Below, piece by piece: positions 76 through 21,663 of a stretch of 64,000 nucleotides of DNA. Source of the stretch: Brevibacillus brevis (lineage in GTDB: Bacteria; Bacillota; Bacilli; Brevibacillales; Brevibacillaceae); assembly GCF_031583145.1 (NCBI RefSeq), contig NZ_CP134050.1:2008501-2072500 (forward strand), read 5' to 3'. Position numbers and translations under genes: made by a program. The notes under the pieces were generated by a model. The model did not search any database. It was not told where the DNA came from and saw only the letters and a list, made by a program, of their open reading frames with translations. Each line of letters starts with the position of its first letter. Positions within the stretch are counted from its first letter, which is position 1.

Positions 76-957
76 TTAAAACGGAATACGGAACTTTTGG
101 AAGAACCAGTTGTCGTCATATTTTCGCTGGGCGAGGTAGCGCATGCGCTGAGCGGCGGCCCCGTGGGTCAGGACGTCGTCGTCGATGTCTGAGGCTTTCG
201 CGTACACAATCAGTTTCTTGCAAGCTTCGATGCGCGGTTCGCTGAAGTGGCTGTAAGCCATCCGCAGCATGTTGTAGTAGACGTGCTCGTGAACGACGGT
301 GTAAGGATGAGACTGTCGGAACAGGTGCAGGATTTTGACCGAAGGCTGGACCATGCACGTATACCCGAAGAGCCACATCTTGATGGAAAACTCGATATCC
401 TCGAATCCCCAGACGCGAAATCCGCGATCAAATCCCCCGACCTTGCGAAAAACATCTTTGGATACGACAAAACAGCCGCCGGGCAAGACGGCGACCGGCG
501 ATGGCTGGTGAGGATTCGGATTCCAGACGACGCCGAGGCGATGGTCGAGTGACTGACCGTATCCGATCTTGTGCGGTTCCGTCAGGGAAGCGATGCCGGG
601 AGCCACGCCGTCTGCCTTCTTGGTGAGAATCAGGTCCATTAACCGATCGATCCAGAAGTTCTCGAACGTCAAATGAGCATCGCAGAAGACGAGGTAGGAT
701 CCCTTCGCATGATCGGCTCCGAGATTGCGGGCTGCCGCCGCGCCGATCCCTTCGGTGGTAATGAGTTGGATTTGCGGAGACGGCTGCTGGGTGAGGAAAT
801 AGCAACAGTTATCCGTCGAAGCATCGTCGACCACGATGACTTCGTAAGAATGATTGGTCCGGCAGTTAAAAAGGGAGGTGATGGTGGCACGCACGTTGTC
901 TCCCTCGTTTTTTACGGGAATGATGATGGAGACCAGCGGCGTATGCTGGACGGACAT
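76..957 (-). CDS. Glycosyltransferase family 2, polypeptide GalNAc-transferase-like
   Basis: A 293-residue GT-A glycosyltransferase. The start is the ATG at 957, preceded by AAAGGAGTGG; the frame stays open further upstream without a better ribosome site. Residues 8-25 are the GT2 opening strand (VSIIIPVKNE). Residues 93-95 read DAH instead of the usual DxD, and residues 160-200 contain PGGCFVV..., then VWGFEDIE. The DxH plus WGxExxE pair is characteristic of eukaryotic-type polypeptide N-acetylgalactosaminyltransferases (GT27 and its bacterial relatives), which add the first sugar to Ser/Thr. There is no signal peptide or membrane segment, so it should act in the cytosol. It lies at the left edge of the glycosylation locus. 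The GT fold is certain; the sugar and the protein acceptor are inference. Confidence 0.85.
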   Translation of the reverse strand: MSVQHTPLVSIIIPVKNEGDNVRATITSLFNCRTNHSYEVIVVDDASTDNCCYFLTQQPSPQIQLITTEGIGAAAARNLGADHAKGSYLVFCDAHLTFENFWIDRLMDLILTKKADGVAPGIASLTEPHKIGYGQSLDHRLGVVWNPNPHQPSPVAVLPGGCFVVSKDVFRKVGGFDRGFRVWGFEDIEFSIKMWLFGYTCMVQPSVKILHLFRQSHPYTVVHEHVYYNMLRMAYSHFSEPRIEACKKLIVYAKASDIDDDVLTHGAAAQRMRYLAQRKYDDNWFFQKFRIPF

Positions 958-979
958 TTGACCACTCCTTTCTCCCTGC

Positions 980-988
980 CATGGTATG
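980..988 (-). promoter_or_regulatory. Near-match to a sigma-K type -10 element
   Basis: On the minus strand this reads CATACCATG, one base away from CATAnnnTA, 23 bp before the glycosyltransferase start at 957. Taken alone it is weak. It is listed because most units of this locus carry the same type of motif. No convincing -35 was seen. Confidence 0.25.
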
Positions 989-1040
989 CGTGAGGCCATT
1001 TGGTGGAACGCCCAGAGGGAAAATTGCAATCCGGCGTTTC

Positions 1041-1068
1041 ACTCTTGGGAATAGGCATTCATACAATA
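1041..1068 (+). promoter_or_regulatory. Candidate sigma-K (mother cell) promoter
   Basis: The sequence AC at 1041-1042, a 17-nt spacer and CATACAATA at 1060-1068 fit the sigma-K consensus AC-N16/17-CATAnnnTA. The -10 also resembles the sigma-E form CATACAAT, but no sigma-E -35 is present. The predicted start site, near 1077, lies about 33 bp before the coding start at 1110. Confidence 0.5.
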
Positions 1069-1109
1069 AGGCGGGCGAGTATCGACAGAGTCGTGAAGGA
1101 GTGACAGGG

Positions 1110-19729: not shown

Positions 19730-19848
19730 TGCCTGAAAAGAAGGAAGCAACGGCGTCAGCCTTTCGGGCTGGACGATTCCTTTCCCCTTCTTGACCGCCT
19801 GTTTTTTGCTGGGCTCCGTCGACAGCGATGCTTTTTTCAAAGGGAAGT

Positions 19849-19857
19849 CATACGCTA
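19849..19857 (+). promoter_or_regulatory. Candidate sigma-K type -10 element
   Basis: CATACGCTA matches CATAnnnTA exactly, 36 bp before the coding start at 19893. No clear AC -35. It is divergent from the similar motif at 19721-19729. Confidence 0.35.
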
Positions 19858-19892
19858 ACGAAGAAGAGCAGCGAAAGGAGTGTGGGGGAGGG

Positions 19893-20600
19893 ATGGATTC
19901 CCTTTCGTTCTATGAAAAGCGAATGTATTCGCAAAACGGAGAGGACGGGATCATCGAGGAGCTGTTTGCCCGCATCGGGACAACCAATCGGCTATGCGTC
20001 GAATTCGGAGTTTCGGATGGCTTGCAGTGCATGTCCCGCCATCTACTCGTACATCATGGCTGGTCGGGCTTGCTGATCGAAGCGGATCCCGACTGCTTTT
20101 GCCGATTGGCGCTGCATTTCGGTCAAGCTCCCGGTGTGAAACTTTGCCATTCTCGCGTGACGAAAGAAAACATCGCTACTCTCTTTCGTGAAAACGGCGT
20201 TCCTGACGAGTTTGACTTCCTGTCAATCGATATAGACGGCAACGATTATTGGGTCTGGCAAGCGTTGCACGAGTGGAAGCCGCGGGTCATCGTCATCGAA
20301 TACAACGCTTCGTTTCCTCCGCCGCAAAAAATGGTCATTGCGTACGACCCCGATTTCAGATGGGACGGGACTTCCCATTTCGGCGCGAGTCTCAGTTCTT
20401 TGGCAGAATTGGGAAAGCGGCTGGGCTATGCCTTGATCGGTACGGACACATGCGGGGTAAACGCCTTTTTTCTGCGCCGTGACCTGCTGGAAGTCAGCAG
20501 ATTTGCCGAATTGACTCCCGAGCAGGCTTATCACGCTCCCGCTTACGGCCCCGACGGGGGAGGGCACCCCAGAAGAAACGGACCTTATTTGGACATCTAG
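19893..20600 (+). CDS. FkbM-like methyltransferase domain protein
   Basis: A 235-residue protein from the ATG at 19893 (AAAGGAG upstream). It begins with YSQNGEDGIIEELF, a signature common in FkbM-related proteins of glycan loci, then CVEFGVSDG (motif I position), LLIEADP and FDFLSIDIDGNDYWV. Substrate binding is therefore likely, but I cannot tell whether it methylates. It is followed after 94 bp by gmd and is probably co-transcribed with it, since no terminator separates them. Confidence 0.72.
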   Translation: MDSLSFYEKRMYSQNGEDGIIEELFARIGTTNRLCVEFGVSDGLQCMSRHLLVHHGWSGLLIEADPDCFCRLALHFGQAPGVKLCHSRVTKENIATLFRENGVPDEFDFLSIDIDGNDYWVWQALHEWKPRVIVIEYNASFPPPQKMVIAYDPDFRWDGTSHFGASLSSLAELGKRLGYALIGTDTCGVNAFFLRRDLLEVSRFAELTPEQAYHAPAYGPDGGGHPRRNGPYLDI

Positions 20601-20694
20601 ACCGGGTGAGGTTCCAATTGGCACCAACTTTCGGCCATCACAATATACAGTGGAGAGAGCGGTTTTTGATGCCTAGCAAGGGGGTGGATCGATC

Positions 20695-21663
20695 GTGAAG
20701 ACAGCTTTCCTGACGGGGATCACGGGTCAAGACGGAGCCTATTTGGCGAAATGGCTGCTGGAAAAAGGGTACCGGGTAGTCGGACTGGTCCCCCGGCGCA
20801 GCACGGTGGACCGATGGCGGTTGGAGTACTTGAACATTGCGGACGACGTGGAGTACAGGGAAGGTGACCTCTTGGACGTATCCTCGCTGACTCGCGCGAT
20901 CAAGGCGTGCAAGCCTGACGAGGTCTATCACTTGGCGGCGCAGAGCTTTGTCGGCTCCTCGTGGGAGCAGCCGATTTTGACCGCCCAAGTGACGGGGCTG
21001 GGCGTCCTCCACGTGCTGGAGGCCATTCGCGAGACAGATCCCGGAATCAAGATGTACCAGGCTTCTTCGAGCGAGCTGTACGGCTTGATTCAGGAGCCGC
21101 GGCAGACGGAGGAGACGCCGTTTTATCCGCGGAGCCCGTATGCCGTCTCCAAGCTGTTCGGCTACTGGATGACGAAAAATTACCGGGAGAGCTTTCGGAT
21201 GTACTGCTGCAACGGCATCCTGTTCAACCACGAGTCGCCCTTGCGCGGGTTGGAGTTCGTGACGAGAAAGGTGACGCACGCCGTCGCCCGGATCGCCGCC
21301 AACCAGCAAAAGGAGCTTCGGCTGGGCAATATCCACGCCAAGCGCGACTGGGGATTCGCGGGGGATTACGTAGAGGCGATGTGGCTGATGCTCCAAGCGG
21401 AAAAGCCGGACGACTTCGTGATTGCCACAGGCAAGACGACCACGGTCGAGGAGATGTGCAGGATCGCCTTCGACTACGTCGGGCTGAATTACCAGGATTA
21501 CGTCGTGATTGATCCACAGCTGTACCGCCCCGCAGAAGTGGACGTGTTGCTCGGCAACCCGGAAAAGGCCAAAAGGGAGCTGGGCTGGGAGCCGAAGACG
21601 AAGCTCGAGCAGCTCATCCACATGATGGTCGAGGCGGATTTGCAGCGAGTGGCGAAGGCGTAA
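20695..21663 (+). CDS. gmd: GDP-mannose 4,6-dehydratase
   Basis: A 322-residue extended SDR with a GTG start at 20695 (AAGGGGGTG eight bases upstream). It has the Gmd-specific opening [46 protein letters not shown] and [20 protein letters not shown], which is diagnostic for Gmd. The product, GDP-4-keto-6-deoxy-D-mannose, feeds Fcl and the Rmd-like reductase. ManC, encoded at 8005, supplies GDP-mannose. Confidence 0.95.

Follow-up and report, generated by a model that had tools for sequence, protein, structure and literature searches.

The locus at positions 76-21663 of a 64,000-nucleotide stretch of Brevibacillus brevis DNA (contig NZ_CP134050.1, denoted C1 below, positions 2,008,501 to 2,072,500; this whole stretch is the window) raises the question of where a bacterium uses deoxysugar, glycosyltransferase and methyltransferase genes that come without linked genes for glycan export. 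The answer that appears very likely is that these genes make up a mother-cell, sporulation-specific locus for glycosylation of the spore surface in Brevibacillus, a reading that is favored because the locus is linked to a spore coat gene, is enriched in sigma-K type -10 elements and has a conserved gene order. By analogy, it is most likely the Brevibacillus counterpart of the crust glycan operons of Bacillus subtilis. Spore-surface glycans govern adhesion and hydrophilicity, and their mother-cell assembly and the acceptor protein are known for few species. Here, a seemingly near-complete pathway with two deoxysugar classes is contained in one compact locus that is present in most of the genus, has no linked export genes and lies beside a named coat protein, and it can serve as a test case for the sugar-coating of spores without export machinery.

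The genes for the synthesis, transfer and modification of sugars are the following, in the coordinates of the window:
76-957, minus strand: GT2a, GT2 glycosyltransferase (PF00535, 3.1e-24), adjoining the spore coat gene just left of the window
4516-5715, minus strand: GT2b, GT2 glycosyltransferase (PF00535, 3e-35)
5893-6771, minus strand: CmoB-like methyltransferase (PF08003, 2.7e-11)
6986-7834, plus strand: X1, GT8-like glycosyltransferase with DxD and LHFQG motifs
7996-9402, plus strand: ManC, mannose-1-phosphate guanylyltransferase/isomerase (PF00483 and PF01050)
9386-10507, plus strand: RfbG, CDP-glucose 4,6-dehydratase (TIGR02622, 497 bits, cut-off 278)
10527-11294, plus strand: RfbF, glucose-1-phosphate cytidylyltransferase (TIGR02623, 417 bits, cut-off 300)
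11340-11927, plus strand: FkbM methyltransferase (PF05050, 1.1e-13)
11932-12828, plus strand: short-chain dehydrogenase/reductase (SDR), probable 4-reductase of the CDP-sugar branch (PF01370)
12928-14370, minus strand: methyltransferase with an FkbM domain in its C-terminal half (PF05050, 1.6e-18; TIGR01444)
14389-15501, minus strand: GT4 glycosyltransferase (PF00534, 1.3e-25)
15514-16452, minus strand: Fcl-like epimerase/reductase (NF047922, 296 bits, cut-off 500)
16481-17710, minus strand: GT2c, GT2 glycosyltransferase (PF00535, 1.4e-34)
17707-18693, minus strand: Rmd-like GDP-4-keto-6-deoxymannose reductase (best solved relative 2pk3, 6e-83)
18824-19672, minus strand: X2, GT8-like glycosyltransferase, a paralogue of X1 (43% identity)
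19893-20600, plus strand: weak FkbM-like methyltransferase in the fkbM3 position (PF05050, 24.2 bits, cut-off 22.7)
20695-21663, plus strand: Gmd, GDP-mannose 4,6-dehydratase (TIGR01472, 417.7 bits, cut-off 415)

Profile and structure matches bear out the inventory of the first-pass annotation, which comprised ManC, Gmd, Fcl, an Rmd-like SDR, RfbF, RfbG, a further SDR, six glycosyltransferase-like enzymes and several methyltransferases, with two amendments. The gene at 76-957 is set apart from the remaining sugar genes by three non-sugar genes, namely, 1110-2915 (the 1110 gene), a gene for a YkwD-type CAP protein and one for a DUF1360 protein, and Fcl is recognized by homology, below the equivalog cut-off. 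The best solved relative of this protein is a GDP-L-fucose synthase (7e-69); because the NF047922 cut-off is not reached and the call is one of homology, the label stays ‘Fcl-like', that is, a homologue of GDP-L-fucose synthase as judged from sequence. The six glycosyltransferases include three of the GT2 family, one of GT4 and the two GT8-like enzymes; one of the four methyltransferase-like genes (19791-20600) is weak, and the N-terminal half of 12928-14370 has a weak second methyltransferase match (PF13578, 7e-5, below the cut-off). X1 and X2 belong to a family without a Pfam match and share a GT8-like fold (GT-A fold of the glycogenin/LgtC type, with DxD), and a PDB sequence search with X1 returned only rows at E 0.06 and above. 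X1 was rejected as a spore-specific family, given relatives with ∼25-40% identity in non-spore-formers, and ManC was rejected as a marker of the locus, its best plasmid relative residing in a standard exopolysaccharide (EPS) cluster.

Four export and priming families, PF02397, PF01943, PF04932 and PF01061, were searched across the genome. As claimed in the first-pass annotation, no exporter or priming gene of these families is linked to the locus in its own genome, either within the window or just outside it, where such a gene would have told against that annotation (the search did not extend to PF00953, further polymerases or oligosaccharide transferases). The single PF02397 match of the genome (C1:4398951) lies 2.37 Mb away, inside an EPS locus of the usual kind that includes a Wzx gene; none of the five PF01943 matches comes closer to the window than 83 kb on the upstream side and 66 kb on the downstream side, the one PF04932 match lies 88 kb upstream, and the nearest of the six PF01061 matches (four over the cut-off) 308 kb from the locus end. 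In a simple scan for hydropathy, the DUF1360 protein was the only one of the 20 encoded by the locus to show more than one hydrophobic segment (three); GT2b and ManC have one each, compared with 6, 8 and 9 segments in three proteins of the EPS locus. The latter (C1:4386000-4405000) resembles the present locus in encoding ManC, Gmd, an Fcl-like enzyme and glycosyltransferases, but differs in having a Wzx-type flippase, a phosphoglycosyl transferase (PGT) and an 8-segment membrane protein, none of which occurs in the present locus. The genome holds an EPS system and, separately, the present locus without export genes of the searched families. As far as these four families go, the locus lacks the linked flippase or exporter, polymerase and PGT of Wzx/Wzy- or ABC-dependent capsule and EPS loci and the PGT and exporter of S-layer glycan clusters (for which the oligosaccharide transferase was not searched); in pairing enzymes for sugar nucleotides with glycosyltransferases while having no export or priming genes nearby, it has the make-up of the spore-surface (crust/exosporium) glycosylation class of Bacilli.

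The locus could still make a capsule, EPS or S-layer glycan of vegetative cells if it borrowed the flippase, polymerase and priming enzymes from elsewhere. The EPS locus does contain the one PGT of the genome along with Wzx, and ∼85 kb upstream of the window, a Wzy_C gene lies 4 kb from one of the flippase type. GDP-D-rhamnose produced via Rmd occurs in S-layer glycans, and the closest structure to the Rmd-like protein, 2pk3, is a GDP-6-deoxy-D-lyxo-4-hexulose reductase. Furthermore, EPS of vegetative B. subtilis cells can coat spores, according to excerpts of PMC13274460. Against a vegetative role, the EPS locus already includes genes of its own for ManC, Gmd and an Fcl-like enzyme, the promoter elements that are enriched are of the sigma-K type, not sigma-70-like, and the conserved neighbor is a spore coat gene, so that this alternative appears distinctly improbable. 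The stretch with the distant Wzy_C-type and flippase-type genes (C1:1919975-1925174, 83-88 kb upstream of the window) shows one weak GT4 match to the locus genes.

The coat gene in question lies directly left of the window:
C1:2007270-2008469: BMQ_0737-family morphogenetic spore coat protein, 400 amino acids (NF052457, 104 bits, cut-off 71)
Conservation of the locus next to spore genes, the check that the first-pass annotation had put forward, is borne out in related genomes. The coat gene adjoins GT2a in all 18 relatives in which the flank is covered; G020, the 19th, has a contig break at this point, with its coat gene near the 1110 gene on a different contig. The order and strand of the block are retained in all 19 relatives. 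Conserved linkage to a spore coat gene is another property of the spore-surface class. The P. megaterium namesake, BMQ_0737, is among the outermost spore proteins as judged by anti-GFP labelling (PMC4656864, in excerpts). A PDB sequence search with the coat protein gave no match at E 1. Cytosolic O-glycosylation of flagellin needs no exporter either, so the locus might decorate flagella or another cytosolic protein unrelated to spores. However, the conserved neighbor is the spore coat gene and no flagellar gene was recognized among the identified genes of the locus and the 20 kb upstream, and we consider this explanation highly implausible.

A hint at the timing of expression comes from the motif CATAnnnTA, the sigma-K -10 consensus. 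The window contains 12 matches compared with 4.7 expected, a number reached in none of 100 shuffles. Seven of these lie within 76-21663, and five are located on the correct strand, 34-48 bases ahead of the starts at 1110, 6771, 6986, 19672 and 19893, the other two being an overlapping reverse match at 6945 and one at 3144 inside the CAP gene. Strand and spacing suggest that the 4516-21663 segment consists of four operons in two divergent pairs, with the heads at 6771/6986 and 19672/19893. The five putative promoter elements are:
1060-1068, plus strand: sigma-K/E type -10 before the 1110 gene, CATACAATA, aligned in relatives
6817-6825, minus strand: sigma-K type -10 before the 6771-4516 operon, CATATGGTA, aligned in relatives
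6943-6951, plus strand: sigma-K type -10 before the 6986-12828 operon, CATAAAGTA, aligned in relatives
19721-19729, minus strand: sigma-K type -10 before the 19672-12928 operon, CATATGATA
19849-19857, plus strand: sigma-K type -10 before the 19893-21663 operon, CATACGCTA

The exact motif was further counted within 100 bases of all 20 locus genes, with positional filters, in 20 genomes assigned to four clades that were set by eye from identity and do not represent a tree. It is present in at least half of the genomes in 16 of the 77 gene-by-clade cells (the ‘acid' cells rest on N-terminal partial matches) and in 70 of the 378 upstream stretches; the 59 permuted motifs yield means of 1.3 cells and 8.6 stretches, with the maxima of 7 and 39, respectively. 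An earlier count for nine genes (17 of 36 cells, permuted maximum of 4) was set aside in favor of this one because those genes had been chosen after seeing twelve, with coatX, manC and CAP dropped, and the clade C cell of X2 had counted the X1 gene a second time. In contrast to the sigma-K type elements, sigma-70-like sites number 4 compared with 10.5 expected in a consensus scan of positions 1-20000. The mother-cell sigma-K/E promoters that characterize the spore-surface class thus appear to be present, at the level of sequence elements. The proposal in the first-pass annotation that the glycan is built in the cytosol on a spore-surface protein is accordingly well supported in its spore-surface and mother-cell parts, by the coat gene, the sigma-K type elements, the genus-wide block and the separate EPS locus; the linkage to protein, given this mother-cell core, is reasonably likely.

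Several observations weigh against the spore-surface assignment. Four of the 26 genomes of the genus (G001, G004, G010 and G021) have neither the 1110 gene nor a close orthologue of the coat gene and, therefore, the system is not general. For 13 of the 20 locus genes, not one genome shows an exact CATAnnnTA within 100 bases; most of these genes are internal to the inferred operons, but CAP and DUF1360 are not. Moreover, GT2a has the motif only in clade C, and there are clade gaps for X1 (in D), MTcmo (in C), fkbM3 (in B and D) and X2 (mostly in D). The exact motif is also missing from the coat gene and from the genes for a CotH kinase and a collagen-like protein that are located 9-12 kb upstream of the window. 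This pair is not conserved: besides the genome under study, cotH is found only in the flank of G014, and the collagen repeat in one of the 42 stretches scanned, that of the same B. brevis genome. The scan covered 19 left flanks of relatives (3 of these flanks are short) and 19 locus stretches, along with L004, L135, L136 and the EPS locus. Finally, the GT8-like family is present also in cyanobacteria and in Bacteroidota, neither of which makes endospores.

How widespread the locus is, and which of its parts travel together, can be seen from gene presence in related genomes. A GT8-like gene was detected in 20 of the 26 genus genomes, and the same 20 encode RfbG over the TIGR02622 cut-off, one copy per genome and always in the present locus, compared with one of 14 control genomes with a TIGR02622 match over the cut-off. 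Across 39 family genomes, the 20 with RfbG, and no others, encode a strong orthologue of the SDR at 11932, and this SDR can therefore be tied to the CDP branch. At the coverage used, some genes were not seen in relatives, namely, FkbM1 in eight, X2 in five, fkbM3 in G012 and the CmoB-like gene in G024, and gmd was not seen in G012, G014 and G022, where the stretch or the contig ends. The 1110 gene was missed by the block comparison in G009 and G020, both of which have it by other scans, and some relatives carry extra sequence and matches between fkbM3 and gmd. Two further genomes, G003 and G025, keep the frame of coat gene, GT2a, 1110 gene (split into two frames in G003), DUF1360 and GT2b, together with ManC and Fcl, and lack RfbG over the cut-off, X1 and a strong SDR orthologue; RfbF and a CAP gene are likewise not seen over the 20-kb stretch. 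Species that have the CDP module and species that lack it provide a natural experiment.

Outside the genus, four Paenibacillus loci (L074, L077, L086 and L091) resemble the Brevibacillus locus in encoding Fcl and X1/X2 (all four), a GT2c-like enzyme (three) and RfbF, RfbG and the SDR (three), but differ in that the gene order is rearranged. In L086 (10.0-15.2 kb, P. profundus) and L091 (10.0-14.9 kb, P. apiarius), an Fcl-like gene sits beside RfbG, RfbF and the SDR. The genomes of these two species have no Gmd over the cut-off and, because of this, the substrate of their Fcl-like enzymes is uncertain.

The scheme that we infer, including the operons, the timing of expression, the linkage to protein, the acceptor, the identities of the sugars and the chain order, is as follows. 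Late in sporulation, the sigma-K type promoters would switch on the 1110 gene and the four operons. ManC would supply GDP-mannose, to be converted by Gmd to GDP-4-keto-6-deoxymannose, from which GDP-D-rhamnose would arise through the Rmd-like enzyme and GDP-L-fucose through the Fcl-like one. In the other branch, RfbF and RfbG would make CDP-4-keto-6-deoxyglucose, which the SDR probably reduces to a CDP-6-deoxyhexose, for example, CDP-quinovose, a reasonable step to propose because quinovose (6-deoxyglucose) is the 4-reduction product of the RfbG product. The six glycosyltransferases, which have no membrane domains (GT2, GT4 and GT8-like), would assemble short chains, the FkbM/CmoB-type methyltransferases would modify the sugars, and the chains would be attached to outer coat or exosporium proteins on the outer face of the engulfed spore, with the neighboring BMQ_0737-type coat protein as the first acceptor candidate. 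No flippase, polymerase, ATP-binding cassette (ABC) exporter or undecaprenyl-phosphate priming would be needed because the forespore lies inside the mother-cell cytosol.

The same mother-cell core could instead yield products that are not linked to protein, namely, small glycosides or a polysaccharide layer that is free or held only loosely. Loosely anchored spore polysaccharide layers are possible, and no clearly protein-directed transferase was identified in the locus (oligosaccharyltransferases were not among the searched families). However, glycogenin primes on protein, and the GT8-like folds include glycogenin, although a shared fold is no proof; in addition, B. subtilis CgeA is reported to be a glycoprotein (PMC11708026, in excerpts). 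We regard this variant, the odds of which overlap with those of the spore-surface reading itself, as unlikely. Still more doubtful is an extended version of the protein-linked scheme, in which the locus would be modular and serotype-like, the glycogenin-fold GT8-like enzymes would start deoxysugar chains on spore proteins in the cytosol without a lipid carrier, with the conserved, pseudo-amidase-like 1110-2915 protein or the BMQ_0737-type protein as the acceptor or scaffold, and the Fcl-like enzyme might, in some species, act on a CDP-linked rather than a GDP-linked 4-keto-6-deoxysugar.

Among the known systems, the yfn operon presumably consists of genes for sugar-nucleotide enzymes and glycosyltransferases, with no export genes. 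Compared by description, the yfnHGFED, sps, cge and ytd-ytc operons of B. subtilis are like the spore-surface locus of Brevibacillus in combining genes for such enzymes without export genes. The latter differs by a branch that derives from GDP-mannose (Gmd/Rmd/Fcl), by its two GT8-like enzymes and four methyltransferases, and by having a BMQ_0737-type coat gene next to it. According to excerpts of the B. subtilis studies, the sps genes have sigma-K promoters and are transcribed in the mother cell (PMC7439481), the yfnHGFED, cge and ytd genes shape the crust glycans, with yfnHGFED mutations altering the crust and the glycan layer, and the spores carry quinovose and rhamnose (PMC7439481, PMC11708026). 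The glycosylation of the B. cereus-group exosporium (BclA), where the glycans include anthrose/cereose and L-rhamnose in excerpts of PMC11952670 and PMC6222408, likewise concerns outer spore proteins, and the Brevibacillus strain has CotH and a collagen-like protein with a BclA_C-like end below the cut-off, but the collagen gene is not conserved at the Brevibacillus locus. Among the titles listed by searches of an open-access library for Brevibacillus spore glycosylation, none concerns such a locus, and the main text of a paper on the Brevibacillus spore surface (PMC5335551) contains no word that starts with ‘glyco'. The kind of system is known from Bacillus; the sugar set, the gene make-up and the genus look new.

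In the left flank, a CotH kinase gene, the gene for the collagen-like protein and a GT2-TPR gene form a row (L004:7835-11933; C1:1996335-2000433), of which only CotH, in G014, turned up in the flanks of the relatives. The collagen-like protein has 561 amino acids, with 117 G-X-Y triplets in a single run and a BclA_C match of 32.8 bits compared with the cut-off of 38. A BclA-like exosporium collagen was rejected as the general acceptor given the restriction of the collagen repeat to a single stretch. To the left of the coat gene, there is also a 697-aa coiled-coil protein (L004:16556-18649) that has diverged partial matches (∼27-47% identity) in many relatives.

Within the window, no Rfam family was found at gathering thresholds, and no tRNA by ARAGORN. 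The three non-sugar genes between GT2a and the main cluster are:
1110-2915, plus strand: protein without a family, with an amidase_3-like domain, an acidic middle and a C-terminal beta-sandwich
2963-4072, minus strand: peptidoglycan-binding and CAP protein of the YkwD type (PF01471 and PF00188; TIGR02909, 172.7 bits, cut-off 171)
4166-4513, plus strand: DUF1360 small membrane protein with three hydrophobic segments (PF07098, 3e-33)
The 1110-2915 protein is conserved across the genus and has an amidase_3-like fold without the conserved His, its long acidic middle being of low confidence; it is possibly a pseudo-enzyme with a structural role in the spore. The CAP protein is probably not part of the sugar pathway, and its gene is retained at the locus in the 19 relatives.

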